Assembly (NCBI GenBank): GCA_903857865.1
Contig: CAIOGO010000010.1
Coordinates: forward strand, 124,001-188,000
Direction of reading: 5' to 3'
Source of the DNA: an uncultured bacterium
GTDB taxonomy: Bacteria > Bipolaricaulota > Bipolaricaulia > UBA7950 > UBA9294
DNA: 64,000 bases
In this document: piece by piece, positions 50,727-64,000 of the stretch
Layout of the letters: the number at the start of each line of letters is the position of its first letter
How positions within the stretch are numbered: position 1 is the first letter of the stretch
Translations under genes and position numbers: made by a program
The notes under the pieces: generated by a model
The model's input: only the letters and a program-made list of their open reading frames with translations
The model's database searches: none
Told to the model about the DNA's origin: nothing

Positions 50727-50786
50727 GAGGTAGAACCGTTGGGCACCGGGATTCCGGTAGAACCAAGGAGATGCAAGGAGGTCGCG

Positions 50787-51956
50787 TTGAAGAGACTACT
50801 CGTAGTCGCTCTCGTGCTGACGCTCGGCCTGTCGGTCGCTGGCTTGGCGGCAGGGAAGGTCGCCGTGGTCCTCGACGTCGGTGGGCGCGGCGATCTGGCG
50901 TTCAACGACATGGGATTCAAAGGGACGGATCAGGCGGCGAAGGATTTCAATCTCCAGATGGTCGAGGTCCAATGCGCCACGGGCGCGGACTACCTGCCGA
51001 ACATGCGGAACCTCGCCCGAACCGGTGAGTATGACCTCATCATCTGCGTCGGCTTCCTGCTCGGTGACGCGCTCGCCGCGGCGGCGACGGAGTTCCCGAA
51101 CCAGAAGTTCGCGATCATCGACGTGGACTACATCACGGGCCCCAACATCATGAACTTCGTGTTCCGTGAGAACGAGATGTCGGCCCTGGTCGGCGCGCTG
51201 GCGGCCATGTCCGCGGCGCAGCACGGCTACACGACGGCTGGCATTGTTCTCGGAATCGAGATCCCGGTGCTGTGGCACTTCGAGGCCGGATTCCGCTTCG
51301 GCATGGATTGGGGCCTCAAGGCCTACGCCGCGCATGAGGGCACGATGCCCGCGGTGAACCTGCTCTACACCTACACCGGCACGTTCAGCGACATTGCGCT
51401 CGGCAAGGCGGCTTCGGAAGCCATGCTCGCGCAGGGCGCGGTCGGCATCTATAACGTCGCCGGCCCGCTAGGCGTCGGCGATCTCGAAGCCGTGACTGAA
51501 GTCCATGACAACGCCGGGACGAAGTACGGTCCTCCGTACTACTACGGCGTCGATGCTGACCAGGACTGGATGGGCAACGGGATGCACGGCATCGCGAGCG
51601 GCATGAAGCGCGTCGACACTGCGTGCTACATGGCCGTCGAGGCCGTCGTCAATGGGACCTTCACGCCCGGCGTGACGAGTCTCGGCCTCGCTGAGGGCGG
51701 AGTCGCAATCAGCAAGGTACGCGACATGGAGGAGTTCATTCAGTACGGCATCGGCGCGGGGCAGATCGCAGCGGCCGACGCTCCGGCCATCACGTACAAC
51801 TGGGTGCAGAATCGGCTGACCGTCGCCGACTGGATCTGGGATGCCGTGGCGCTGCTCGAGCAGGGCATCCTGAACAACTCGATCTTCGTCCCGACGGCCA
51901 GTACGGGCGCTGAGATCGCCACAGTGCGAGCGCAGTACACGCTCGGCGCGCCCTAG
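50787..51956 (+). CDS. BMP-family nucleoside-binding protein
   Basis: The 389-residue product is the periplasmic binding protein of a BmpA/PnrA-type nucleoside ABC importer. The start is a TTG at 50787, five bases after AAGGAGG. It has a signal peptide (KRLLVVALVLTLGLSVAGLAAG) without lipobox, so it is probably soluble. Family landmarks: VAVVLDVGGRGDLAFNDMGFKGTDQAAKDF, DLIICVGFLLGDALAAAATEFPNQKFAIID, FRENEMSALVGALAA and the YYYGVDADQDWMG segment. Family members bind purine and pyrimidine nucleosides. The gene heads an operon with two-domain ATPase and two permeases, and a strong hairpin separates it from the ATPase gene. Confidence 0.92.
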   Translation: MKRLLVVALVLTLGLSVAGLAAGKVAVVLDVGGRGDLAFNDMGFKGTDQAAKDFNLQMVEVQCATGADYLPNMRNLARTGEYDLIICVGFLLGDALAAAATEFPNQKFAIIDVDYITGPNIMNFVFRENEMSALVGALAAMSAAQHGYTTAGIVLGIEIPVLWHFEAGFRFGMDWGLKAYAAHEGTMPAVNLLYTYTGTFSDIALGKAASEAMLAQGAVGIYNVAGPLGVGDLEAVTEVHDNAGTKYGPPYYYGVDADQDWMGNGMHGIASGMKRVDTACYMAVEAVVNGTFTPGVTSLGLAEGGVAISKVRDMEEFIQYGIGAGQIAAADAPAITYNWVQNRLTVADWIWDAVALLEQGILNNSIFVPTASTGAEIATVRAQYTLGAP

Positions 51957-52038: not shown

Positions 52039-53646
52039 ATGAATGCAAACGACGCTCCAGCGAATGCACGGGCCGCTGACGGTTACTTCCTCCGCGCCGA
52101 GAACATCACGAAGGTCTACTCGGACGGTACGGTGGCTCTCCGCGAAGCGACGCTGGAGATCCATCCGCGGGAGATCGTCGGGCTCTTGGGGGAGAACGGG
52201 GCCGGGAAGACGACGCTCACGAAAATCCTGTCTGGACTTCTTCCCCCCACCAGCGGCCGCGTGACGTCACCGAAGGGCGTGGTGCGATTCGCCAGCCCAC
52301 GCGAAGCGCTCGACTTCGGAATCGGGATGGTGCATCAGCACTTCGCCCTCGTGGGCACGTTCACGGCAACGGAGAACGTCGCACTCAGCCACGAGCGCCC
52401 GTTCGCGCGCATCCGGCTGGACCAGGCGCGCGAGCGGCTCGAGGGCCTGATGAAGGAAAGCGGCCTCCACGTCCCCCTCGACGTCCCCGTGGAGAAGCTG
52501 GCGGTGGGAGAGCAGCAGCGCGTCGAGATCCTCAAGGTGCTGTCGCGGGGCGTTCGCCTTCTGATCCTCGACGAGCCGACCTCGGTCTTGACCCCTCTTG
52601 AGGTCGACGAGCTGTTCCTCCTCCTTCGACGTCTCCGCGATGCGGGGACGTCGATCATCCTCATCACCCACAAGCTGAAAGAAGTGCAGTCGGTCACGGA
52701 CCGGATCGTCGTCCTTCGCCGCGGGGAACTCGTGGGAGACGTCAAGACGTCGACGGCAACGACCGAGCGCCTCGCCCAGCTCATGGTGGGCAGGGCGGTG
52801 GAGGGGGAATCGACGGCCGTCGAACTGAGCGCGGAGCAGCTACCGCGCGCCGGCGCGCGGTCGAAGACCGGTTCGTCGGGTGAGAGCATCCTTCACGTCG
52901 CCGATCTCGTAGCCAAGGGCAGCACAGGCGATGTCGCCGTCGATGGGCTGTCGTTCGACGTCCACGCCGGAGAGATCTTCGGCATCGCCGGCGTAGAGGG
53001 AAACGGTCAGTCGGAGTTGGTCGAGTGTCTGACCGGGCTACGCCGAGCGGTCTCTGGCATCGCGACCATCAAAGGCACCGACATCCTAGGCAAAGACCCT
53101 CGCGAGATCTATCGCCTCGGCGTGGCACACATCCCGGAGGATCGCTGGCGGCTCGGTCTTGTTCTGCCGTTCACGCTGGCGGAGAACGCGATCCTCGGTG
53201 TGCACCGATGGAAGGAGTTCCGCGGCCCCTTGTCGTTCATGCGCTGGGGCAGGATTAACCGCCACGTCCGCGAGTTGATGGATCGATTCGAGATCCAGGC
53301 GACGGGGCCGAACGCGCCGGCGAAGAGTTTGTCGGGCGGGAATCAGCAGAAACTAATCGTGGGACGCGAATTGGCCAAGAATCCAGCGATCGTCGTCGCG
53401 TCGCAGCCGACGCGGGGACTCGACATCGGAGCAGCGAAGTACATCCGCGACCTTCTCGTCGAGATGCGCAACAACGGACGGGCCATCCTGCTCGTATCAG
53501 CCGACCTCGATGAAGTGCTGGCGCTCGCCGATCGCCTGGCGATCATGTACGAGGGACGGTTCATGACCGAGTGCGCCCCCACGGATCTGAATCGGCAGCA
53601 GATCGGCATGCTCATGGGAGGCGTGGAACGCAAGGAGGTCGTATGA
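52039..53646 (+). CDS. nucleoside ABC importer, two-domain ATP-binding protein
   Basis: The 535-residue ATPase is of the sugar/nucleoside (NupA, RbsA-like) type with two nucleotide-binding domains. The first has Walker A GENGAGKTT, signature VEKLAVGEQQRVEIL, and LLILDEPTSVLTP. The second begins near 290 (LHVADLVAKGSTGDVAV) with the degenerate Walker A GVEGNGQSE, signature LSGGNQQKLIVGREL and ASQPTRGLDIGA. This asymmetry is normal for the family. The ATG at 52039 lies after the attenuator hairpin. The next permease gene overlaps by four bases. Confidence 0.94.
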   Translation: MNANDAPANARAADGYFLRAENITKVYSDGTVALREATLEIHPREIVGLLGENGAGKTTLTKILSGLLPPTSGRVTSPKGVVRFASPREALDFGIGMVHQHFALVGTFTATENVALSHERPFARIRLDQARERLEGLMKESGLHVPLDVPVEKLAVGEQQRVEILKVLSRGVRLLILDEPTSVLTPLEVDELFLLLRRLRDAGTSIILITHKLKEVQSVTDRIVVLRRGELVGDVKTSTATTERLAQLMVGRAVEGESTAVELSAEQLPRAGARSKTGSSGESILHVADLVAKGSTGDVAVDGLSFDVHAGEIFGIAGVEGNGQSELVECLTGLRRAVSGIATIKGTDILGKDPREIYRLGVAHIPEDRWRLGLVLPFTLAENAILGVHRWKEFRGPLSFMRWGRINRHVRELMDRFEIQATGPNAPAKSLSGGNQQKLIVGRELAKNPAIVVASQPTRGLDIGAAKYIRDLLVEMRNNGRAILLVSADLDEVLALADRLAIMYEGRFMTECAPTDLNRQQIGMLMGGVERKEVV

Positions 53647-54803
53647 GCGAACAAGCGGGGCCGACACAGTCCCGCCTCTTGAGAGGCGTCCACCGGACAG
53701 TTACCGGACTTCATCCCGCCCTCGAGTCCATGCTGGCTGCGCTCATCGGACTCCTCGTTGGCGCCGCCCTCATGTACATGTGGGGATTCAACCCGTGGAA
53801 GGCCTACTGGGCTTTGCTCCGCGGCGCCTACGGAGGGTCGTACGAGTGGGCGAGCACGCTCGCCCGCGCGACGCCGCTCATTCTGACCGCGCTGACGTTC
53901 TCCGTGTGCGTTCGTGCGGGCATGTTTAACATTGGCGCCGAAGGCCAGATGTTCATGGGCGCGATGGCGGCTATCTGCGTGGCGCTGTTCAAGATGCCCC
54001 CCGGAATCCACCTGATCGTCGGGCTCCTGTTCGCCCTGATCGCCGGCGCGGCATGGAGCATTGTGCCTGCCGTGCTAAAGATCACCCGCGGGGTATCCGA
54101 GGTCATCTCGACAATCATGTTCAACTGGATTGCGCGGTGGCTCGCCTTGTACATCGCCATCTTCATCCTCGTGGATCCGTCGCGCGCGGAGAAGACGTTG
54201 ACGATCCCGGTGTCGGCGCGGTTCCCGATCCTCGTTCGCGGCACGGACTTCTCGTACTCGTTCTTCCTTGCGATCTTCGCCGCCCTGGTCCTGTACTTCG
54301 TTCTCTGGCACACGACGATGGGGTACGAAGTGCGCGCCGCGGGACTCAATCCGACCGCCGCGCGCTACGGGGGGATCCGCAACAAGCGAACGATGATCGT
54401 AAGTTTCCTCCTCGGCGGCATCACGGCCGGCCTCGCCGGAGCCACCGTCGTCATGGGAATGCCGCCGAGCTATGCAGCGTTCGGCGGGGGAGCATTCCCC
54501 GAGCTGACGAACATCGGCTTCGACGGCATGGCGGTCGCCATGGTCGGACGCAACCACCCGATCGGCATCATTGTGGCGTCGGTCCTGTTCGGCGGTCTCA
54601 ACGCCGGGGGGCGCGTCATGCAGTTCTACGGGTCGAACCCGGTTCCACTCGAGATGGTGCGCATCGTCATGGGTGCAATCGTTCTCGCGATGTCGATTCC
54701 TGAGCTGATTCGGCTGGTCCCGGCGATCAAGAGTCAGGGGGAGCGGCTGATTGCGACGCTTCGACGGCACGGACGGCCCGCGTCCAAGGAGGGATCCGCA
54801 TGA
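53643..54803 (+). CDS. nucleoside ABC importer permease 1
   Basis: The 386-residue protein starts at the ATG overlapping the ATPase stop (ATGA). It has about nine helices and the BPD_transp_2 pattern: TPLILTALTFSVCVRAGMFNIGAEGQMFMGA, RGVSEVISTIMFNWIA, GYEVRAAGLNPTAARYGGI, and TNIGFDGMAVAMVGRNHPIGIIVAS. It belongs to the same family as BSU NupB/YufP. It forms a heterodimeric channel with the next permease. The C-terminal tail is basic and cytoplasmic. Confidence 0.93.
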   Translation: MSEQAGPTQSRLLRGVHRTVTGLHPALESMLAALIGLLVGAALMYMWGFNPWKAYWALLRGAYGGSYEWASTLARATPLILTALTFSVCVRAGMFNIGAEGQMFMGAMAAICVALFKMPPGIHLIVGLLFALIAGAAWSIVPAVLKITRGVSEVISTIMFNWIARWLALYIAIFILVDPSRAEKTLTIPVSARFPILVRGTDFSYSFFLAIFAALVLYFVLWHTTMGYEVRAAGLNPTAARYGGIRNKRTMIVSFLLGGITAGLAGATVVMGMPPSYAAFGGGAFPELTNIGFDGMAVAMVGRNHPIGIIVASVLFGGLNAGGRVMQFYGSNPVPLEMVRIVMGAIVLAMSIPELIRLVPAIKSQGERLIATLRRHGRPASKEGSA

Positions 54804-55693
54804 ACTGGATTGACCTCGTCAGCCTGCTTCGCATCGCGCTCCACGCGATGGTCCCGATCACGCTGACGGCCGTCGGCGAGATCGTCGGAGAGACAGCCGG
54901 GCTGTTCAACATCGGGCTGGAAGGCATCCTGCTCATCAGCGCCTTTGCCGGCGCTCTCGGCGCCGAGGCCGGCGGCCCGGTGGTCGGGCTCCTCGTCGGA
55001 ATGGGCGTCGGAGCCGCCATCGGCCTCGTCTTCGCGGTGATCAACACGTACTGGAAGGGAACCCAGATGATCACCGGTATCGGCATCAACCTGTTCGCGA
55101 TGGGACTCGTCGCGTTCGGGCTGATCCAGCTCGGGGCGCCGGGATTCCACGCTGTGCCGCGAGCCGCTCAGGTCATCAAGTGGAAGACCGCCATGGGTGC
55201 GATGAGTCCGATCATTCTCATCGCGCTCGCAATGCCGTTCCTCATCCACTGGTTCATCAAACGGACGCGCGCCGGACTGATCCTCAAGGCCGCGGGAGAA
55301 ATGCCGGAAGCGGCTGATGTCGCGGGGATCAACGTGAACAAGGTGCGCCTTCTCGCGGCGACGTTCGGCGCTGCTCTGGCTGGATTGGGCGGAGCGTACA
55401 TGAGCGTCGCGTGGATCGGATCCGTGACAAAGGACCTGTCGGCAGGGCGAGGGTTCATTGCTCTGGCGACCGTCGTCTTCAGCGGACTCAACCCGCTCCT
55501 TGCCTTGCTTGGCGGGTTTATCTTCGGCTTCTTCCAGGGTCTCGCCGAGTGGGTGAAGACGCTACCGTCGAAGCCGATCCCGAGCCAGTTCGTGTCCATG
55601 CTGCCGTACATCGTCACGCTGCTCGTCGTGTCGGGGGCCATCGGCCGCGTGCGGTTCCCCAAGGCGCTGGGCGAGCCGTACAAGCGCGAGTAG
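54800..55693 (+). CDS. nucleoside ABC importer permease 2
   Basis: The 297-residue protein overlaps permease 1 by four bases. It has about eight helices and family motifs GEIVGETAGLFNIGLEGILLISAFAGAL, GTQMITGIGINLFAMGL, and LAGLGGAYMSVAWIGSVTKDLSAGRGFIALATVVFSGLNPLLALLGGFIFGF (the last helical coupling segment is typical). It completes the BmpA-type importer. The operon ends here: no further gene follows within 118 nt, and a separate promoter serves the next group. Confidence 0.93.
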   Translation: MNWIDLVSLLRIALHAMVPITLTAVGEIVGETAGLFNIGLEGILLISAFAGALGAEAGGPVVGLLVGMGVGAAIGLVFAVINTYWKGTQMITGIGINLFAMGLVAFGLIQLGAPGFHAVPRAAQVIKWKTAMGAMSPIILIALAMPFLIHWFIKRTRAGLILKAAGEMPEAADVAGINVNKVRLLAATFGAALAGLGGAYMSVAWIGSVTKDLSAGRGFIALATVVFSGLNPLLALLGGFIFGFFQGLAEWVKTLPSKPIPSQFVSMLPYIVTLLVVSGAIGRVRFPKALGEPYKRE

Positions 55694-55786: not shown

Positions 55787-55811
55787 GGTAGGGCACTACA
55801 GGAGGTGCGTC

Positions 55812-56813
55812 ATGCGTAGGCTTCTCTCTCTGGCGCTGCTCGCGCTCGTCGCGTTCAGCATCGTGGGACTCGCCCAAGTTGGGACCCAGCAAAAGCCCAT
55901 TTACATGTTGCTCCCGCCGTCGACCGACACGACCGTGATCGGGCCGTCGGGGGACGCGATCGCGGAATACATCTTCCAGCAGACGGGGCTGTACGTCGTC
56001 CCGATCGTCGCCTCGGACTACGCCGCTCTCGCCGAGGCCTTCGCTACGGCCGAGGGTGACGTGTTTGGCATTCCGACAAGCTCGCAGTACTGCCAGATTT
56101 ACGCCGCGACGAACGGCGGGATCGTGCCGACGATGGGCGCCGTCCGCAACGGCTACAGCTACTACTACGCCACAATCTACGCGCTCCGGTCGAAGGGCTA
56201 CACGTCGATTCAGGACCTCGCCGGCAAGACGTGGATCTACAACGACGTCGGCTCGGGCTCGGGGTACAAGTACCCGAAGGTGTACCTGCAACAGAACGGC
56301 GTGCAGTGGGGAAGCATTGTTGAGACGGGCGGGCACGTGAACTCGATGGTCGCTCTGCTGCAGGGCCAGGGTGACTTCTGCACTGGCTACGGCTCGCCTC
56401 CGCTCGCTCCCCAGTGCCTGAAGGATCAGGGCATTCGCTGGGAGTGGGGCGACGATCCCGAACTCATGGTCTGGGACTACTTCCACAACGCCCTCGTCCG
56501 CAATGGGCTCGCCTGGCGCTGTGAGGATCTGCGGTTCGCCGTCCTCAACGACTATCCCGACGTATTCACCCAGGTCGGAATCGTCGGCGTCGTCGGCCCA
56601 ATTCCGAACGACTGCCTCGCGTTCGTGGCGGACTTCCCGGCCGACCTGAGGGACCAGATTACCGCGACTCTCGTGCAGCACATCTTGACCCCCGAGGGCT
56701 TCGCGATCTGGAGCAACAAGAAATTCTACCAGTGGTCGGGCATGGAGCCGGTCACGGACAGCGTGTTCGACCTGATGCGCGCGGTCCTCGGCCTCCCGGT
56801 CCCGCAGCGGTAG
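55812..56813 (+). CDS. PhnD-like substrate-binding protein
   Basis: The 333-residue protein is the binding component of a phosphonate/phosphite-type ABC importer. The ATG at 55812 is six bases after AGGAGG. It has a signal peptide (RRLLSLALLALVAFSIVGLAQ) and a family-typical body: YMLLPPSTDTT, GDAIAEYIFQQTGLYVVPIVASDYAALAEAFATAEGDVFGIPTS, then TWIYNDVGSGSGYKYPKVYLQQNG. The last part is the Ser/Gly loop used for the phosphonate group in PhnD, although the usual S-T-S pattern is altered to S-G-S. No lipobox. The true ligand is uncertain, since neighbouring genes are for nucleosides, not phosphonates. Confidence 0.85.
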   Translation: MRRLLSLALLALVAFSIVGLAQVGTQQKPIYMLLPPSTDTTVIGPSGDAIAEYIFQQTGLYVVPIVASDYAALAEAFATAEGDVFGIPTSSQYCQIYAATNGGIVPTMGAVRNGYSYYYATIYALRSKGYTSIQDLAGKTWIYNDVGSGSGYKYPKVYLQQNGVQWGSIVETGGHVNSMVALLQGQGDFCTGYGSPPLAPQCLKDQGIRWEWGDDPELMVWDYFHNALVRNGLAWRCEDLRFAVLNDYPDVFTQVGIVGVVGPIPNDCLAFVADFPADLRDQITATLVQHILTPEGFAIWSNKKFYQWSGMEPVTDSVFDLMRAVLGLPVPQR

Positions 56814-56893: not shown

Positions 56894-57667
56894 ATGGCTG
56901 AACCGCAACTAGTCATCGAGCATGTAACGAAGGTCTACGAACGGGGGGACGTCCACGCGTTGCGTGACGTCTCGCTCACCGTGAACAAGGGCGAGTTCCT
57001 CGTGCTTATCGGGCTCTCCGGCTCCGGCAAGTCGACACTCCTGCGGTGCATCAACCGCCTGATCGAGCCCACCTCGGGCCGGATCCTCCTGGACGGCGTT
57101 GACATCACGCAGGCGAAGGGCGCTGAACTGCGCAAGATCCGGCGGAGAATCGGCATGGTGTTTCAGCACTTCAACCTCGTGAAGCGGTCGTCCGTGCTGA
57201 CGAACGTTCTCGCCGGGCGGTTGGGGTACGCGCCGCCCCTGCCCACGTTGATCGGGCGCTTCCCGCACGAGGACATGGACCGCGCTCGGCAGAGCCTGGA
57301 GACGGTCGGCCTGGTGGAGAAGATGCACACTCGCGCCGATCAGCTCTCCGGCGGCCAACAACAGCGTGTGGGCATCGCACGCGCCCTGATGCAGGAACCG
57401 GAGTTGATCCTCGCCGACGAGCCCGTCTCGGCACTCGACCCGGCGACGGCCAATTCCATCCTTCAGTACCTGGAGGAGATGAACCACAAGCACGGGGCCA
57501 CCGTCATCTGCGCCCTGCACTTCTTGTCGCTCGCCCGGCGTTATGGGACCCGGATCATTGCGCTCAAGGACGGCGCCGTGGTCTTCGAAGGACTGCCGAG
57601 GGAGATCGACAACGTCCGATTCAAGGAGATCTACGGCGAGGACGCCGAAGAGGTGGAGGTTCGCTAG
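56894..57667 (+). CDS. phnC: PhnC-like ABC transporter ATP-binding protein
   Basis: The 257-residue ATPase has the PhnC layout: [24 protein letters not shown], Walker [36 protein letters not shown] (PhnC-typical), signature [15 protein letters not shown], Walker [14 protein letters not shown] and the switch His in [13 protein letters not shown]. It pairs with the PhnE-like permeases that follow. Start ATG at 56894 lacks a strong ribosome-binding site. The next gene begins directly after its stop. Confidence 0.93.
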
Positions 57668-59119
57668 GTGAGTCGCCGCTTCCGCCTGCCGAAGGATCGC
57701 ATCGCCGCGCTCACTGCAGATTGGGGGCTCCTCCTCCTCCTTTCCTACTGCACGTACTTCCTGATCAATCACTGGTACCGAGCGACTCACCATGTCTCCG
57801 CGGTGTACAAGATCCCTTTCCCTGACTACGCTTACGTCGTTGCGGTCGTCGCGACGTTCCTGCTCGCGGTCTTATGGGAGAACCTGGGGACCTCGATCGG
57901 CTGGAAGGGCGTCGGCCTCGCTCACGCCGATGAAGCCCATCGCCCGCTCGGGCTACCACGCCGCGTTGCGCACGTCTTCACCGATCTCGCATCGTGGCTT
58001 CTGACCCTTCTCGGGGCGGCGTTCGCTCTCCTTCCGCTCGCCGGGCTTGCGACGCTCTTCTACGGGATCGCATCCCGAACGGGGCTCACGTTCATCCCCA
58101 CCGTCGTCTTCTGGCCTCTGGGCCCCTGGGGCCGAGCCTTAGGTCTGACCGCCGGCCTCATCCTGGCCTTGGCCGTGATCGGTGTGGCCTCCTGGCGGGC
58201 GGCGCGCGGACTCTGGAGATGGCTGTGGCCGGCGCACAAGGACAAGCACCCATGGACAGACCGCATCGTTCGGTCTTGCGTCTGCCGCGCCGCGGACGTT
58301 GAACAGCCAAGTAGGCGTCGGCGTTGGTGGCAGACGAGTTGGGGCCTCATGGCGCTCCTTCTCGCCGGCCTGACGGTCTACGTCGGCTGGCTCGCGACGC
58401 AGATCAACATCGCCACCCTCATCCGCAGGGCCTCTTCGACCGGCGGCTACTGGCAGAAGCTGGCGACGCCGGACTTCAAGTTCTTTCTTGCCGCCGACCC
58501 CGATCTAGGCGACACGTTGCTGAACGGCATCGTCCAGACGATCTTCATGGCCTTGATGGCGACCCTGTTTGGCTTTGTGCTCGCCTTTCCGCTGTCGTTC
58601 CTCGGCGCGAGGAACATGGTGACAAAGAGCCGCCTGGGATGGGGCGTCTACACGTTGATGCGTGGTTTCTTCAACATCGGCCGATCCATCGAGCCGTTCG
58701 TCATGGCCGTCGTGTTCGCAACCTGTGTCGGGTACGGACCGTTCGCGGGAACCCTTGCACTCTTCGTGCATACGGTCGCCGCGTTGGGGAAGCTCTACTC
58801 TGAGCAGATCGAGGCCATTGACCCCGGCCCCGTAGAGGCCATCACGGCGTGCGGCGGGCGCCGCACGCAGACCTTGCGCTACGGAGTCATCCCTCAGGTC
58901 GTCCCGTCATTCCTCGCCTTCACCCTCTACCGCTGGGACATCAACGTGCGCATGGCGACGATCATCGGCATCGTCGGCGGAGGCGGCATTGGGCGGTTCT
59001 TCAACTACTACAAGAATGAGCTGCGCTGGCACGAGGTCGGAGCGGTCATCGTGATCATCGCCGTTGTCGTGTGGGGCATGGACTACATCAGCGGCCGCGT
59101 GCGGGAGAGGATTGCGTAA
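57668..59119 (+). CDS. PhnE-like permease with N-terminal RDD-like domain (1)
   Basis: The start is a GTG right after the phnC stop. The 483-residue product is long for PhnE (about 260-280). The C-terminal part (from about residue 280) is a normal PhnE permease: FGFVLAFPLSFLGARNMV, ALGKLYSEQIEAIDPGPVEAITACGG, VPSFLAFTLYRWDINVRMATIIGIVGGGGIG. The N-terminal part (about 10-110) looks like an RDD domain: an Arg/Asp start (DRIAALTADWGLLLLLSY), two helices, then WENLGTSIGWKGVGLAHADE, matching the RDD pattern GxSxGKRxxGLRVVD. Two further helices follow before the permease. The fusion is present again in the next gene. Confidence 0.85.
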   Translation: MSRRFRLPKDRIAALTADWGLLLLLSYCTYFLINHWYRATHHVSAVYKIPFPDYAYVVAVVATFLLAVLWENLGTSIGWKGVGLAHADEAHRPLGLPRRVAHVFTDLASWLLTLLGAAFALLPLAGLATLFYGIASRTGLTFIPTVVFWPLGPWGRALGLTAGLILALAVIGVASWRAARGLWRWLWPAHKDKHPWTDRIVRSCVCRAADVEQPSRRRRWWQTSWGLMALLLAGLTVYVGWLATQINIATLIRRASSTGGYWQKLATPDFKFFLAADPDLGDTLLNGIVQTIFMALMATLFGFVLAFPLSFLGARNMVTKSRLGWGVYTLMRGFFNIGRSIEPFVMAVVFATCVGYGPFAGTLALFVHTVAALGKLYSEQIEAIDPGPVEAITACGGRRTQTLRYGVIPQVVPSFLAFTLYRWDINVRMATIIGIVGGGGIGRFFNYYKNELRWHEVGAVIVIIAVVVWGMDYISGRVRERIA

Positions 59120-60315
59120 TGGCGCAGCCACTTCGCTCCGGGGCAGGGGGAGGGCTCGTTCGGACTGCGGCTCGGGTCACACGTGCTTGGAGGCGACTCT
59201 GCATCTTCTCGGTCGATGCCGCTTTCCTTGCCTACCTCTTCGTGATGGGGTCCTTCGTCGTCACCCGCATCGCGTCGGGGACCGGCGTCTACATCCCCAT
59301 CCCCGGCGGGTTTGTCGTCCTCCTGGCGATCGCCGCCGCGGCCGTCTGGGGCTCCCTCGGAGCCTCCGTGGGGTGTAGGCTCGTCGAGTTCCTCAGCGGC
59401 AGACCCTCAGCCCCTGGCGGGAAGGTGCGTACCCGACGGGTTCCCCTGGAGGGTAGAGGGGCTCCTCTCGGCGAATCCGTACGCACTCGTGCCCTTGGCC
59501 GGCCTGGTCCGCAGCCGACGGAGGCATCCGTGCCGTCGCGCTCACCTTGGTACCGGACACTGTGGGGGTGGAGCATCGTCGTCGCCATTGTCGTCACCCT
59601 CGCGGCGGCGACCGCCATTACGCGAGTTGACTTCTCCCGCCTTGCGCAGAGCTTCCCAGACGCGGCGAAGATCCTGCGGCGGCTTCTACATCCGGACCCA
59701 TCGATCCTCGGGGAAGTCGTTCTGCTCACCCTGGTCACCGTCTTCATGGGACTCATGGCGACGCTGCTGGCGATCCCCGTCGCGGCATTGCTCAGCTTCC
59801 TCGCGGCGCGCAACTTGGCCCGCGGCCCGGTGGGCAGCCTGCTCTATACCGTCGTCCGCGCCGCGGCAAGCATCGTGCGTTCGATCGAACCGATCATTTG
59901 GGCCATCGTGTTTGTCATATGGGTGCGCCCAGGCCCGTTCCCGGGCGTGCTTGCGCTCTTCGTGTGCTCGATCGCCGACCTGGTGAAGCTCTACTCCGAG
60001 CAGCTCGAGTCCATCGACCCCGGCCCGACCGAAGCGGTCACGGCCGTTGGAGGGCGCCGTCTTCAGGTTCTCCTGTACAGCATCGTCCCGCAGATCATCA
60101 ATCCGTATCTCTCGTTCACCCTCTATCGCTGGGACATCAACGTCCGCATGGGAACCGTCATCGGCATGGTTGGGGGAGGCGGCATCGGAATGCTGCTCAT
60201 GCAATACGTGCGCGTCAACGAGTGGGAAGAAGTTGGCATGTGCCTTCTGGCGATCATCGCCGTAGTCTGGTCGATCGACACCCTGTCGGCGCGCCTGCGC
60301 GAGCGGCTGAGCTAG
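59119..60315 (+). CDS. PhnE-like permease with N-terminal RDD-like domain (2)
   Basis: The start is the ATG at 59119, overlapping the stop of the first permease by one base. The 398-residue protein again has a normal PhnE part (about 190-398: ALLSFLAARNLARGPVGSLLY, DLVKLYSEQLESIDPGPTEAVTAVGG, YLSFTLYRWDINVRMGTVIGMVGGGGIG). An N-terminal segment of about 95 residues resembles a worn RDD domain (RRLCIFSVDAAFLAYLFVMG, then WGSLGASVGCRLVEFLSG). Between them is a basic, low-complexity linker. It forms a heterodimer with the first permease, as PhnE1/PhnE2 do. Confidence 0.83.
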   Translation: MAQPLRSGAGGGLVRTAARVTRAWRRLCIFSVDAAFLAYLFVMGSFVVTRIASGTGVYIPIPGGFVVLLAIAAAAVWGSLGASVGCRLVEFLSGRPSAPGGKVRTRRVPLEGRGAPLGESVRTRALGRPGPQPTEASVPSRSPWYRTLWGWSIVVAIVVTLAAATAITRVDFSRLAQSFPDAAKILRRLLHPDPSILGEVVLLTLVTVFMGLMATLLAIPVAALLSFLAARNLARGPVGSLLYTVVRAAASIVRSIEPIIWAIVFVIWVRPGPFPGVLALFVCSIADLVKLYSEQLESIDPGPTEAVTAVGGRRLQVLLYSIVPQIINPYLSFTLYRWDINVRMGTVIGMVGGGGIGMLLMQYVRVNEWEEVGMCLLAIIAVVWSIDTLSARLRERLS

Positions 60316-60639: not shown

Positions 60640-61959
60640 ATGGACATCGTCGAGATCATCCGCAAGAAGCGCGACGGCGGTGTGTTGACCCGGGACGAGA
60701 TCGCATTCTGGATCTCAGGAACGGTCTCGGGTTCCGTCCCCGACTACCAGGTTTCCGCGCTCCTCATGGCCCTCTTCTTTCGCGGCATGAGCGACGAGGA
60801 GACGTCCGTCCTAACCGACGTCATGGCGCACTCCGGCTCGATGTTCACTCCGGGCGATCTCGGCGGGTACACGGTCGACAAACACTCGACCGGCGGCGTG
60901 GGGGACAAGACGACGCTTGTCCTCATCCCGCTTCTCGCGGCGGCCGGGCTCAAGGTGGGCAAGCTGTCCGGGCGCGCGCTCGGCCACACGGGAGGGACGA
61001 TCGACAAGCTCGAATCGATCCCCGGCTTCCGCGCGGATCTATCCCGCGACCGCTTCCTTGACCTTGTCCGTCGCACCGGACTTGCGTTGGCCGATCACAC
61101 GACCGACATGGTTCCCGCCGATCGGATCCTATATGAGCTTCGCGATGTCACCGCGACCGTCGACTCCTTACCGCTCATCGTCGCGTCCATCATGTCGAAG
61201 AAGATCGCCGGCGGCGCGCAGGCGATCGTCATCGACGTGAAGACGGGGGCCGGCGCGTTCTTGCCGAAGCTCGAGGACTCGCGCCGCTTGGCGCGGGCGC
61301 TCGTCTCGATCGGCGAGAGACTCGGCCGGAAGATGGCAGCCGTGATCACCGACATGTCTCAGCCGCTCGGCCGAAGGGTGGGAAATGCCATCGAGGTCCG
61401 CGAGGCGATCGACACGCTCAAAGGAGCCGGGCCGGAGGATCTCGCCACTCTGTGCTGTGAGCTGGGCGCCGAGCTTCTCGTCTTCGCAGGAAAGGCTCCG
61501 ACTCGACCCGCGGCCGTCGCCGAGCTGAGGAGGCTCCTGAAGGATGGCTCTGCCCTCGCGAAGTTCCGCGAACTGATCAAGAACCAGGGAGGCAAGGCCG
61601 AGGTTCTCGATCGTCCAGATCTCTTGCCCGCCGCAGCGAAACGAAGCGATGTCCTCGCCGGCGAGGCCGGAACGATCCGCCGCCTGGATGCGCTGCTCGT
61701 CGGTCGCGGTGCGAACGCGCTCGGCGCCGGGCGAACAAAGAAAGAGGACGCGATCGATCCGGCCGTCGGCGTCGAACTCGTGAGGAAGATCGGCGAGCGC
61801 GTGGAGAAGAACGGCGTTCTCGCCATCCTCCACGTCAACGACGAGACGCACGTCGCGGAGGCACGGCACCTGGTGGAGTCAGCCTACGAGATCGACCCAA
61901 GCGAAGCGCCGTGCGCGCCTCCGCCGCTCATCGTCGAACGCATCCTCGGCGCCGCCTAG
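60640..61959 (+). CDS. deoA: thymidine/pyrimidine-nucleoside phosphorylase
   Basis: The enzyme splits thymidine, uridine or deoxyuridine with phosphate into base and (deoxy)ribose-1-phosphate. The 439-residue protein has the phosphate-site segment KHSTGGVGDKTTLVLIPLLAA, the family signature SGRALGHTGGTIDKLESIPGF, and the nucleobase contacts YELRDVTATVDSLPLIVASIMSKKIAGGA. Length and domain layout suit either DeoA or the wider pyrimidine-nucleoside phosphorylase (Pdp). It lies beside the nucleoside importer and opposite cytidine deaminase, which makes uptake and breakdown of nucleosides likely. It is not followed by a gene on its strand before the convergent cdd. Confidence 0.94.
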   Translation: MDIVEIIRKKRDGGVLTRDEIAFWISGTVSGSVPDYQVSALLMALFFRGMSDEETSVLTDVMAHSGSMFTPGDLGGYTVDKHSTGGVGDKTTLVLIPLLAAAGLKVGKLSGRALGHTGGTIDKLESIPGFRADLSRDRFLDLVRRTGLALADHTTDMVPADRILYELRDVTATVDSLPLIVASIMSKKIAGGAQAIVIDVKTGAGAFLPKLEDSRRLARALVSIGERLGRKMAAVITDMSQPLGRRVGNAIEVREAIDTLKGAGPEDLATLCCELGAELLVFAGKAPTRPAAVAELRRLLKDGSALAKFRELIKNQGGKAEVLDRPDLLPAAAKRSDVLAGEAGTIRRLDALLVGRGANALGAGRTKKEDAIDPAVGVELVRKIGERVEKNGVLAILHVNDETHVAEARHLVESAYEIDPSEAPCAPPPLIVERILGAA

Positions 61960-62005: not shown

Positions 62006-62389
62006 CTACGGTTCGAGCGTGAACGCGTCGGGAAGGAGTTCGGCGATCGTCGTACGCGTGTAGTCCCCCTGAGGGTTCCCCATGAGAACCTCGAGCTTTG
62101 GCGCATGCTCGTGCAGCACCTGCCGACAGGCGCCGCACGGGCGGCAGTGGTCGGACTGGCAGGACACGGCGATCTTCACGAACTCCCGCTTCCCTTCCGA
62201 GATGGCCTTGAACAACGCAACCCGCTCGGCGCAAAGGGAGAGGCCGTTGACGGCGTTCTCGATGTTGACGCCCGTGACCACGGTCCCGTCGGCGCACAGG
62301 AGAGCTGCCCCTACGGGGAACTCCGAGTACGGCGCGTAGGCGAGCCGACGGACGTCGTTCGCCAGCTTCACGAGATCTCGATCGTTCAT
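62006..62389 (-). CDS. cdd: cytidine deaminase
   Basis: The enzyme deaminates cytidine and deoxycytidine to uridine and deoxyuridine, feeding the phosphorylase next to it. The 127-residue product starts at the ATG at 62389 (MNDRDLVKLANDVRRLAYAPYSEFPVG), sharing one base with the upstream stop (TGATG). Zinc ligands and catalytic Glu are in NGLSLCAERVALF and the SDHCRPCGACRQVLHE segment. It is the small homotetrameric type. It is convergent with the phosphorylase gene, 46 nt away. Confidence 0.95.
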   Translation of the reverse strand: MNDRDLVKLANDVRRLAYAPYSEFPVGAALLCADGTVVTGVNIENAVNGLSLCAERVALFKAISEGKREFVKIAVSCQSDHCRPCGACRQVLHEHAPKLEVLMGNPQGDYTRTTIAELLPDAFTLEP

Positions 62390-63234
62390 CAGAAACGGAT
62401 CACCACTCCCACAGCGCCCGCCAATCCTCCGACGTGGAGGTCCCACCATCCAACCCACTCAACCATCGGCTGGACGAGTCTCGCTTCGGCGAAAAGGCGC
62501 AGGAACGGGAAGCCGACTTCCAGGCGCGCGCCGACGTGCGCAGCGAGCGCCGACCAGCGGACGTCATCCAGGTGAAGAGCGGCGAGTGCTGCATCGACGC
62601 CCTCTGCCCACTCCGGCGGAAGTTCGCGGCCGACGTCGACGGTCACCGCGCCGCCGGTCCAGTCGATCCCTGCCGATAGGTTGAGCGCAGCAATGACGAT
62701 GTCGAACCGCTTCACCGCTTCGACGGAGATGGCCCACGCTGAGAGATCGGCATCCACGGTGAAGCGCGCTGTCTCGTCACCCAGTGCAAATTCCTCGTCC
62801 AGGAGCGGATCGGGGATCTCAACCCCCGCCATGTCCGCGATGCCGCGGACGATCCCACTGCTCAGGATCCCGCCGGAAAGCCGCACGCCGTCGACAACGA
62901 CGAACGGAAGCGGGATCTCAATTCCTCCTCCGATCATGGGAATGGGAACCAGCGTGGGGAACGCCGTGAGGCCCGCGTTCACGGCCGCAATCGCGGAGTC
63001 AAAGTCCGCCGCCAGGTCGGCGAGTTCGTCCGGTGGCATGCCTTGGTCGGCGAGAAGGGTGAGCAACTCGTCGGAGGCGCCGTGCAACGCAACGGGGACC
63101 CTCGCAAGGGTCCCCGCGACGTCCAGCGAGACGACCTCGCACCCCAGATCGAAGCCGCCAGCACGCACGCACGCTGCCCCCAGCACGAGGACGAACAGAA
63201 CGATGGCAGCCGCTGCAGTTCCCCTCGATATCAT
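62389..63234 (-). CDS. secreted hypothetical protein, possible outer-membrane beta-barrel
   Basis: The 281-residue product starts at the ATG at 63234, which overlaps the acyl-CoA synthetase stop (ATGA); a GTG-like longer frame exists but is unneeded. It has a signal peptide (SRGTAAAAIVLFVLVLGAACVRA). Many alternating hydrophobic strands follow from about residue 150 (ARFTVDADLSAWAISVEAVKRFDIVIAALNLSAGIDW), and it ends VGVVIRF. The final aromatic residue is typical of outer-membrane beta-barrels. I recognise no family. It is co-transcribed with cdd, so a link with nucleoside uptake across the outer membrane is possible but unproven. Confidence 0.6.
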   Translation of the reverse strand: MISRGTAAAAIVLFVLVLGAACVRAGGFDLGCEVVSLDVAGTLARVPVALHGASDELLTLLADQGMPPDELADLAADFDSAIAAVNAGLTAFPTLVPIPMIGGGIEIPLPFVVVDGVRLSGGILSSGIVRGIADMAGVEIPDPLLDEEFALGDETARFTVDADLSAWAISVEAVKRFDIVIAALNLSAGIDWTGGAVTVDVGRELPPEWAEGVDAALAALHLDDVRWSALAAHVGARLEVGFPFLRLFAEARLVQPMVEWVGWWDLHVGGLAGAVGVVIRF

Positions 63235-64000
63235 CGCCGATCCCAGCCCTCCCATTCCTTCCTCTTCAGCTCGGCGCGCTTGATCTTGCCGCTCATCGTC
63301 TTCGGAAGCTCCGTGACGTATTCGATCGCGCGCGGGTACTTGTACGGCGCCGTGACCTTCTTGACGTGGTCTTGAAGCTCTTTCGTCAGCTCGGCGGACG
63401 GCGCGAAGCCCTTGGCGAGAATGACGAACGCTTTCACAATCTCGCCCCGCTCGCGGTGCGGCGCGGCTACCGCAGCCGCTTCGACGACCGCCGGGTGACT
63501 GACGAGCGCGTCCTCAACCTCGAATGGCCCGATGCGATAGCCGGAGGTCAAGATGACGTCGTCGGCACGACCTTCAAAGAAGAGATACCCGTCCTTGTCT
63601 GCCTTCGCGAGGTCTCCGGTGCGGTACCAGCCGCCGGAAAACGCTTCCTTGTCGAGCTCGGGCGCGTTCCAGTAGCCGTCGAAGATCGCCGGGTTCCCCG
63701 GCTTGAGCGCGATCTCCCCTACCTCGCCCTGCTTAACCAGGTTGCCGCTCTCGTCGATGAGCACGACGCCGGGACCCGGAGACGGAAGGCCCATGGCGCC
63801 GGGCTTCACCGGGAGCCCCGGCAGATTGCAGACAAGGCAGACGCTCTCGGTCTGGCCATAGCCGTCGCGAATGGTCACGCCGAACGCGCGTTTGAACGCC
63901 TCGATCGGCTCGACGTTGAGCGGCTCGCCGGCCGACAGAGCGTCCTTCAAGTAGATCTTGTGTTTCCCCATGTCGGGCACCTGCGCAAAGAGGCGATACT
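63231..64000 (-). CDS. acyl-CoA/acetyl-CoA synthetase (AMP-forming), 5' end outside window
   Basis: The visible 256 residues are the C-terminal half of an AMP-dependent synthetase; the frame is open to the window edge, so the start lies beyond 64000. Motifs: DGYGQTES (A5), GEVGEIALKPG, WYRTGDLAKADKDGYLFFEGRADDVILTSGYRIGPFEVE (A7-A8), and the A10 lysine in PKTMSGKIKRAEL. This pattern is of the ACSM or acetate/propionate-type acyl-CoA ligases (activating short or medium chain acids). It may be the first gene of an operon with the secreted protein and cytidine deaminase. Confidence 0.92.
   Translation of the reverse strand, partial: YRLFAQVPDMGKHKIYLKDALSAGEPLNVEPIEAFKRAFGVTIRDGYGQTESVCLVCNLPGLPVKPGAMGLPSPGPGVVLIDESGNLVKQGEVGEIALKPGNPAIFDGYWNAPELDKEAFSGGWYRTGDLAKADKDGYLFFEGRADDVILTSGYRIGPFEVEDALVSHPAVVEAAAVAAPHRERGEIVKAFVILAKGFAPSAELTKELQDHVKKVTAPYKYPRAIEYVTELPKTMSGKIKRAELKRKEWEGWDRR

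Follow-up and report, generated by a model that had tools for sequence, protein, structure and literature searches.

Phosphonate-phosphite ABC importers of the PhnCDE and PtxABC type (TIGR01097, TIGR02315, TIGR01098) share their core with the system described here, which is encoded in a 64,000-nt stretch of DNA (the window) from an uncultured member of the Candidatus Bipolaricaulota. The two permeases and the ATPase of the window score above the family cut-offs, and its binding protein is a relative of PhnD and PtxB with the S.SG and His core of the pocket. The system departs from PhnCDE and PtxABC in that both permeases have a predicted N-terminal RDD domain, C-P lyase is absent, the genes belong to a nucleoside-salvage operon, and the binding protein does not reach the equivalog cut-offs of TIGR01098 and PhnD. 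The system further differs from MetNI, the model for product-controlled import, in having a membrane domain on the permease, the regulatory domain of MetNI being soluble and located on the ATPase; MetI-type importers are members of the same permease superfamily (PDB 3dhw and 6cvl were matched).

Described RDD proteins (PF06271), among them SppI/YteJ of B. subtilis, a Halobacillus RDD protein and VanZ-RDD, are stand-alone or fused to VanZ, whereas here the domain lies ahead of an ABC permease. Common to both are the Arg/Asp of TM1, a G.S.G(K/R) motif that follows TM2 and, for many proteins, an HD..(S/A)GT motif at the end. Mce importers have lipids or sterols as substrates. The Mce-associated RDD of Actinomycetales, Mas1B (PMC1810536), is the nearest described case to an RDD-PhnE fusion: there, too, RDD is tied to the locus of an ABC-type importer, but its carrier is a separate Mas protein rather than the permease. 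The role of RDD has been called unknown in recent work (PMC12419801). SppI RDD inhibits a protease through partner binding (PMC7568657) and may serve, by analogy, as a precedent for RDD as a partner-binding inhibitor. The original prediction was made with no described RDD-PhnE importer known to its author. A search of the covered literature library for RDD-PhnE or RDD-ABC permease fusions likewise found none; PMC12419801 announces an RDD survey that may cover them.

Two PhnE-type ABC permeases, of 483 and 398 aa, are encoded within positions 57668-60315, as originally predicted, by abutting genes on the same strand, 3' of phnC. PhnE1 (57668-59119) has a GTG start immediately following the phnC stop; the longest ORF for PhnE2 begins at 59071, and its likely start is the ATG at 59119, which yields the 398-aa protein. 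The motifs quoted in the prediction, LGTSIGWKGVGL in PhnE1 and LGASVGCRLV in PhnE2, are both present. Both permeases exceed the TIGR01097 PhnE equivalog cut-off of 216.7 bits, the match being confined to the C-terminal part of each protein (Table), and each has an N-terminal surplus of 140-215 residues.

Table. Features of the window and tandem PhnE loci of the same phylum; locus handles mark coordinates that refer to another locus.
Feature	Coordinates	Strand	Evidence or remark
BmpA-like nucleoside-binding lipoprotein family (PF02608), upstream BMP-type ABC transporter	50739..51956	+	Pfam Bmp E=8e-38; conserved neighbour
NupA-like two-domain ABC ATPase, BMP-type transporter	52039..53646	+	E=1.6e-123 to NCBIfam double ATPases of the sugar/B6 type; equivalog cut-offs not reached
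NupB-like permease	53571..54803	+	BPD_transp_2 E=2e-40; true start probably downstream of 53571
NupC-like permease	54800..55693	+	BPD_transp_2 E=8e-35
PhnD-like periplasmic substrate-binding protein	55809..56813	+	PF12974 E=5.8e-25; family alignment A4; matches PDB 5jvb, PtxB, PhnD
PhnC-type ATPase	56894..57667	+	TIGR02315 333.6 bits, cut-off 266.1
PhnE1 predicted N-terminal RDD domain	57668..58309	+	Pfam RDD res. 10-121; A3 E=1.4e-12; hydropathy, residues
PhnE1 type-I ABC permease domain	58310..59119	+	TIGR01097 258 bits, res. 224-482
PhnE2 predicted truncated N-terminal RDD domain	59119..59550	+	A3 E=6.5e-13 (59164-59385 of the window); Pfam RDD no better than E=0.064
PhnE2 permease domain	59551..60315	+	TIGR01097 257 bits, res. 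146-397
Pyrimidine-nucleoside phosphorylase (DeoA/Pdp type)	60640..61959	+	TIGR02644 519 bits, cut-off 409
Cytidine deaminase	62006..62458	-	TIGR01354 135 bits, cut-off 113.65
Tandem PhnE, L070	3896-5488		
Tandem PhnE, L071	7144-8715		
Tandem PhnE, L072	7550-9148		
Tandem PhnE, L073	7171-8736		
Tandem PhnE, L078	5548-7140		

Taken by themselves, the window proteins point only weakly to RDD. With hmmscan, PhnE1 residues 10-121 match the Pfam RDD profile at E=0.0013 and 19.5 bits, and the N-terminus of PhnE2 alone reaches E=0.064 and 14 bits, the cut-off being 24.1 bits. In a search of the whole 2.24-Mb genome, PhnE1 is the sole Pfam RDD match and scores 24.0-24.4 bits, thus at the cut-off. Among relatives, the best PhnE fusion matches the same profile with E=2.4e-13 over model positions 6-137, and E is below 0.01 for 26 of 36 PhnE1 and 17 of 33 PhnE2 N-termini. 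One PhnE2 (L042) exceeds both Pfam cut-offs within one ORF, with 46.8 bits for RDD and 49.4 bits for BPD_transp_1. For a further profile (A3) we took 31 fused N-termini from relatives and left out the window. In the window's own genome it finds exactly two matches, the N-termini of PhnE1 and PhnE2, whose scores of 45.1 and 50.5 bits compare with maxima of 9.3 and 6.2 bits, respectively, among 2000 composition-preserving shuffles of each N-terminus. For window PhnE2, it is solely this profile of relatives that shows the homology to RDD. When aligned to each other with hhalign, the PhnE1 and PhnE2 N-terminus profiles give E=4.8e-29; against canonical RDD domains of other genomes they give E=3.9e-14 and 1.1e-14, respectively, with 98% probability.

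These data bear on the alternative that the N-termini are ordinary PhnE helices whose likeness to RDD arose by chance. The Pfam scores of the window proteins, at or below the cut-off, would agree with it; the shuffle control, the profile search and the profile-profile comparisons contradict it, as does the absence of the segment from PhnE of the other phyla sampled, and we regard this alternative as refuted, with practically no probability left to it. Altogether, the resemblance of both window N-termini to RDD, as judged from these comparisons, is more than chance, and the RDD segment originally predicted for both permeases stands in spite of the marginal Pfam scores in the window.

A profile search for a solved RDD structure found none, and an AlphaFold model of PhnE1 made from a shallow 8-row alignment, restricted to sequences of the window and its related loci, was of poor quality (pLDDT 44) and served for helix positions only. 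In the alignment of fused N-termini, the Asp of TM1 is invariant (69 of 69 rows, 36 PhnE1 and 33 PhnE2) and the FG.S.G motif is near-invariant. An Arg seven residues ahead of this Asp is found in 30 of the 36 PhnE1 and 16 of the 33 PhnE2 rows; conservation is lower for the HD-type Asp at the C-terminal end. Window PhnE1 has R11, D18 and D198, an FG.S.G-type motif at about residues 73-84 and four hydrophobic segments in its extension, one above the typical RDD domain. Window PhnE2 has R26, D33 and the LGASVG motif but only two hydrophobic segments, a linker taking the place of the typical third segment and of the HD motif, with loss of the second Asp. The N-terminus, the loop following TM2 and the linker are rich in Lys and Arg and loop 1 is not, a charge pattern that fits a location inside for both the N-terminus and the linker to the permease. 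Since four and two segments both make an even number of passes, the N-terminus of the permease domain would stay inside, the usual topology of PhnE. The third segment is short in most relatives, and we therefore take it to be re-entrant or interfacial, in agreement with the conserved intramembrane RDD site placed on the cytoplasmic face by an independent analysis (PMC12419801).

The pattern of conserved residues also bears on the possibility that RDD is an ion or proton antiporter domain tying import to an ion gradient. The Halobacillus RDD protein showed Na+(Li+,K+)/H+ antiport (PMC5996927), the one study that supports the originally stated link between RDD and transport of small solutes. However, antiport depended on D154 near the C-terminus and on further residues but did not require the TM1 Asp (PMC5996927), whereas in the fusions it is the TM1 Asp that is invariant; the C-terminal HD Asp and its partner residues are gone from window PhnE2, and the HD motif is replaced or missing in many relatives. 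In addition, SppI, which has all six residues, gave no salt or alkaline phenotype (PMC7568657). Because residues essential for antiport are so often missing here, RDD is more likely to be an accessory or regulatory element than a transporter itself. Coupling of import to an ion gradient seems very improbable.

Pfam RDD matches occur in 52 of 100 genomes of the phylum, above the cut-off in 42. Nearly all sit in PhnE frames; four are stand-alone among the matches listed. In families f1 and f4, RDD is present on PhnE1 and PhnE2; in family f6, half an RDD is found on PhnE1 and none on PhnE2; families f3 and f9 have a single-chain PhnE-PhnE tandem without RDD (Table). The tandem chains are 521-532 aa long and lie outside the nucleoside operon. 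As read from these genomes, the fusion is phylum-wide and present in both paralogues across several Candidatus Bipolaricaulota families. When the RDD profile was run on 160 sampled outside genomes, none of the 22 with PhnE scored; not one of 1021 plasmid records matched by PhnE spans 80% of a fused query, and none of ten outside RDD matches, mostly in long frames, examined for PhnE has one. Beyond these samples, fusions may still occur. In a permease-domain tree that took in two outside rows only, PhnE1 and PhnE2 are sister groups (93/76; the joint group has moderate support), separate from the tandem chains and from outside PhnE, with f6 PhnE2 falling within PhnE2. The simplest reading would be a single fusion followed by duplication, with later loss in f6. 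The truncation in window PhnE2 and the reduction or loss in f6 imply that RDD is not essential everywhere.

PhnE proteins with other additions were encountered outside the phylum. In genome G239, from another phylum, a PhnE that has two extra N-terminal helices, not detectably RDD, lies directly upstream of a pyrimidine-nucleoside phosphorylase (L158, 6587-8886); a possible half-RDD on the deoA-adjacent PhnE of this genome failed the shuffle control. A 519-aa PhnE on a Chloroflexota plasmid (CP069395.1; L164, 4280-5839) has a weak DUF5683-like N-terminal membrane segment and a long insert ahead of the permease core, and a PhnE of genome G175 (L160, 6872-8050) has a large insertion between the first helices. 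Other phyla may be swapping other small membrane domains onto PhnE.

These observations are relevant to the main rival of a regulatory role, namely that RDD does no more than stabilise the heterodimer of permeases through additional helices, as a wing or an anchor, with neither binding nor regulation. Truncation is tolerated (two helices in window PhnE2, half the domain in f6 PhnE1, none in f6 PhnE2), and unrelated N-terminal helices on other PhnE, such as the Chloroflexota segment, suggest that a small membrane unit of whatever kind may suffice. Plain wing helices, however, would need neither a membrane Asp kept in every row of the alignment nor the near-invariant FG.S.G. We therefore consider a purely structural role rather unlikely, although it is the strongest of the competing explanations.

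Upstream of the importer genes lie those of a BMP-type transporter, and downstream deoA and the gene for cytidine deaminase (Table). Of 31 RDD-PhnE loci, 23 have a BMP-type permease nearby, 18 have deoA, and 28 have at least one of the two, counts that are limited by contig ends. deoA is the downstream neighbour in these 18 loci and is found elsewhere in about a third; cytidine deaminase is often part of the operon. Neither a BMP-type permease nor deoA was found near PhnE in the five tandem loci without RDD from the same phylum or in three f6 loci. As the loci are related, the counts are not independent, and the operon association partly reflects shared ancestry and not repeated independent events. 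In some loci the inserted genes encode two BtpA-family proteins and a PfkB kinase whose closest matches are ribose-1-phosphate kinases; in genus g16 (L066, 1986-4878) the ribose-1-phosphate-kinase-like PfkB gene and two adjacent BtpA-family genes are in the operon. A conserved 288-aa protein without a Pfam or NCBIfam match (minus strand, 62389-63255 of the window) is encoded in nine loci, where cytidine deaminase and an acyl-CoA ligase flank it.

The PhnD-like protein has an invariant His176, and the S-T-S-G/His motif of an oxyanion pocket is conserved in its family; the presumed pocket reads GSGSGY (S-G-S-G) in the window and mostly GSTSGY in relatives. The C-P lyase protein PhnJ was found in none of 100 phylum genomes, making classical phosphonate breakdown by C-P lyase unlikely. 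The window's own genome has PstC/A and Na/Pi phosphate importers; G038 and G041 are without Pst and PHO4 but have a Na/Pi transporter. The operon, the PhnD/PtxB pocket, the absence of PhnJ and the other phosphate importers favour a nucleoside-derived, probably phosphoryl-bearing substrate, which we propose with modest confidence. Alternatively, the system could be an ordinary phosphate, phosphite or phosphonate transporter, present in a nucleoside operon by chance or supplying phosphate for phosphorolysis. Its pocket resembles those of phosphonate, phosphite and arsenate binders, and nucleoside phosphorylase uses up phosphate. Against this, PhnJ is missing throughout the phylum sample, a role as sole phosphate importer is disfavoured by the Pst and Na/Pi systems, and the operon link is widespread, the PhnE-deoA pair being found also in the unrelated L158 genome. 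An ordinary transporter of this kind thus appears unlikely, slightly more so than the structural explanation above.

Our preferred reading, to which we assign a probability of about 45%, is a type-I importer for a nucleoside-derived phosphoryl compound, with RDD domains as ligand- or partner-binding modules that tune import. PhnD, PhnC, PhnE1 and PhnE2 would form a type-I ABC importer whose channel is made by two non-identical permeases, each with an RDD domain fused ahead of its first PhnE helix; the sequences show this arrangement of domains, and show also that both paralogues have it and that the phylum conserves it. From within the nucleoside-salvage operon the importer would bring in, for example, a nucleotide or a pentose phosphate, beside a BMP-type transporter taking up nucleosides, a role and a substrate suggested by the PhnD-type pocket and by the operon. 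As accessory membrane modules, the RDD domains would flank the permease core on both sides, each having a site that opens to the cytoplasm and is built around the invariant membrane Asp. Most likely, a small ligand or a partner would bind at this site and import would be tuned in this way, as by a shutdown upon product build-up. In a more specific and rather doubtful version, the paired RDD domains would be a cytoplasm-facing sensor or docking site through which a salvage product or a salvage enzyme gates uptake. If true, product control would here be exerted in a new way, by a domain fused to the permease and embedded in the membrane, and RDD would have its first assigned role in an ABC importer. 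As for the suggested distinct class of ABC importer, the domain architecture is indeed distinct and phylum-wide, but the PhnC/PhnD/PhnE core is otherwise ordinary for its family.

Widespread as RDD is among membrane proteins, in this phylum it is attached to one defined machine, an ABC importer with RDD on each of its two permeases and with its genes in a metabolic operon, and this makes its role directly testable. The phylum-wide, two-paralogue RDD-PhnE architecture confirms and extends the earlier observation and hints that in Bipolaricaulota the PhnE family may have been adapted to nucleoside-derived nutrients rather than phosphonates.
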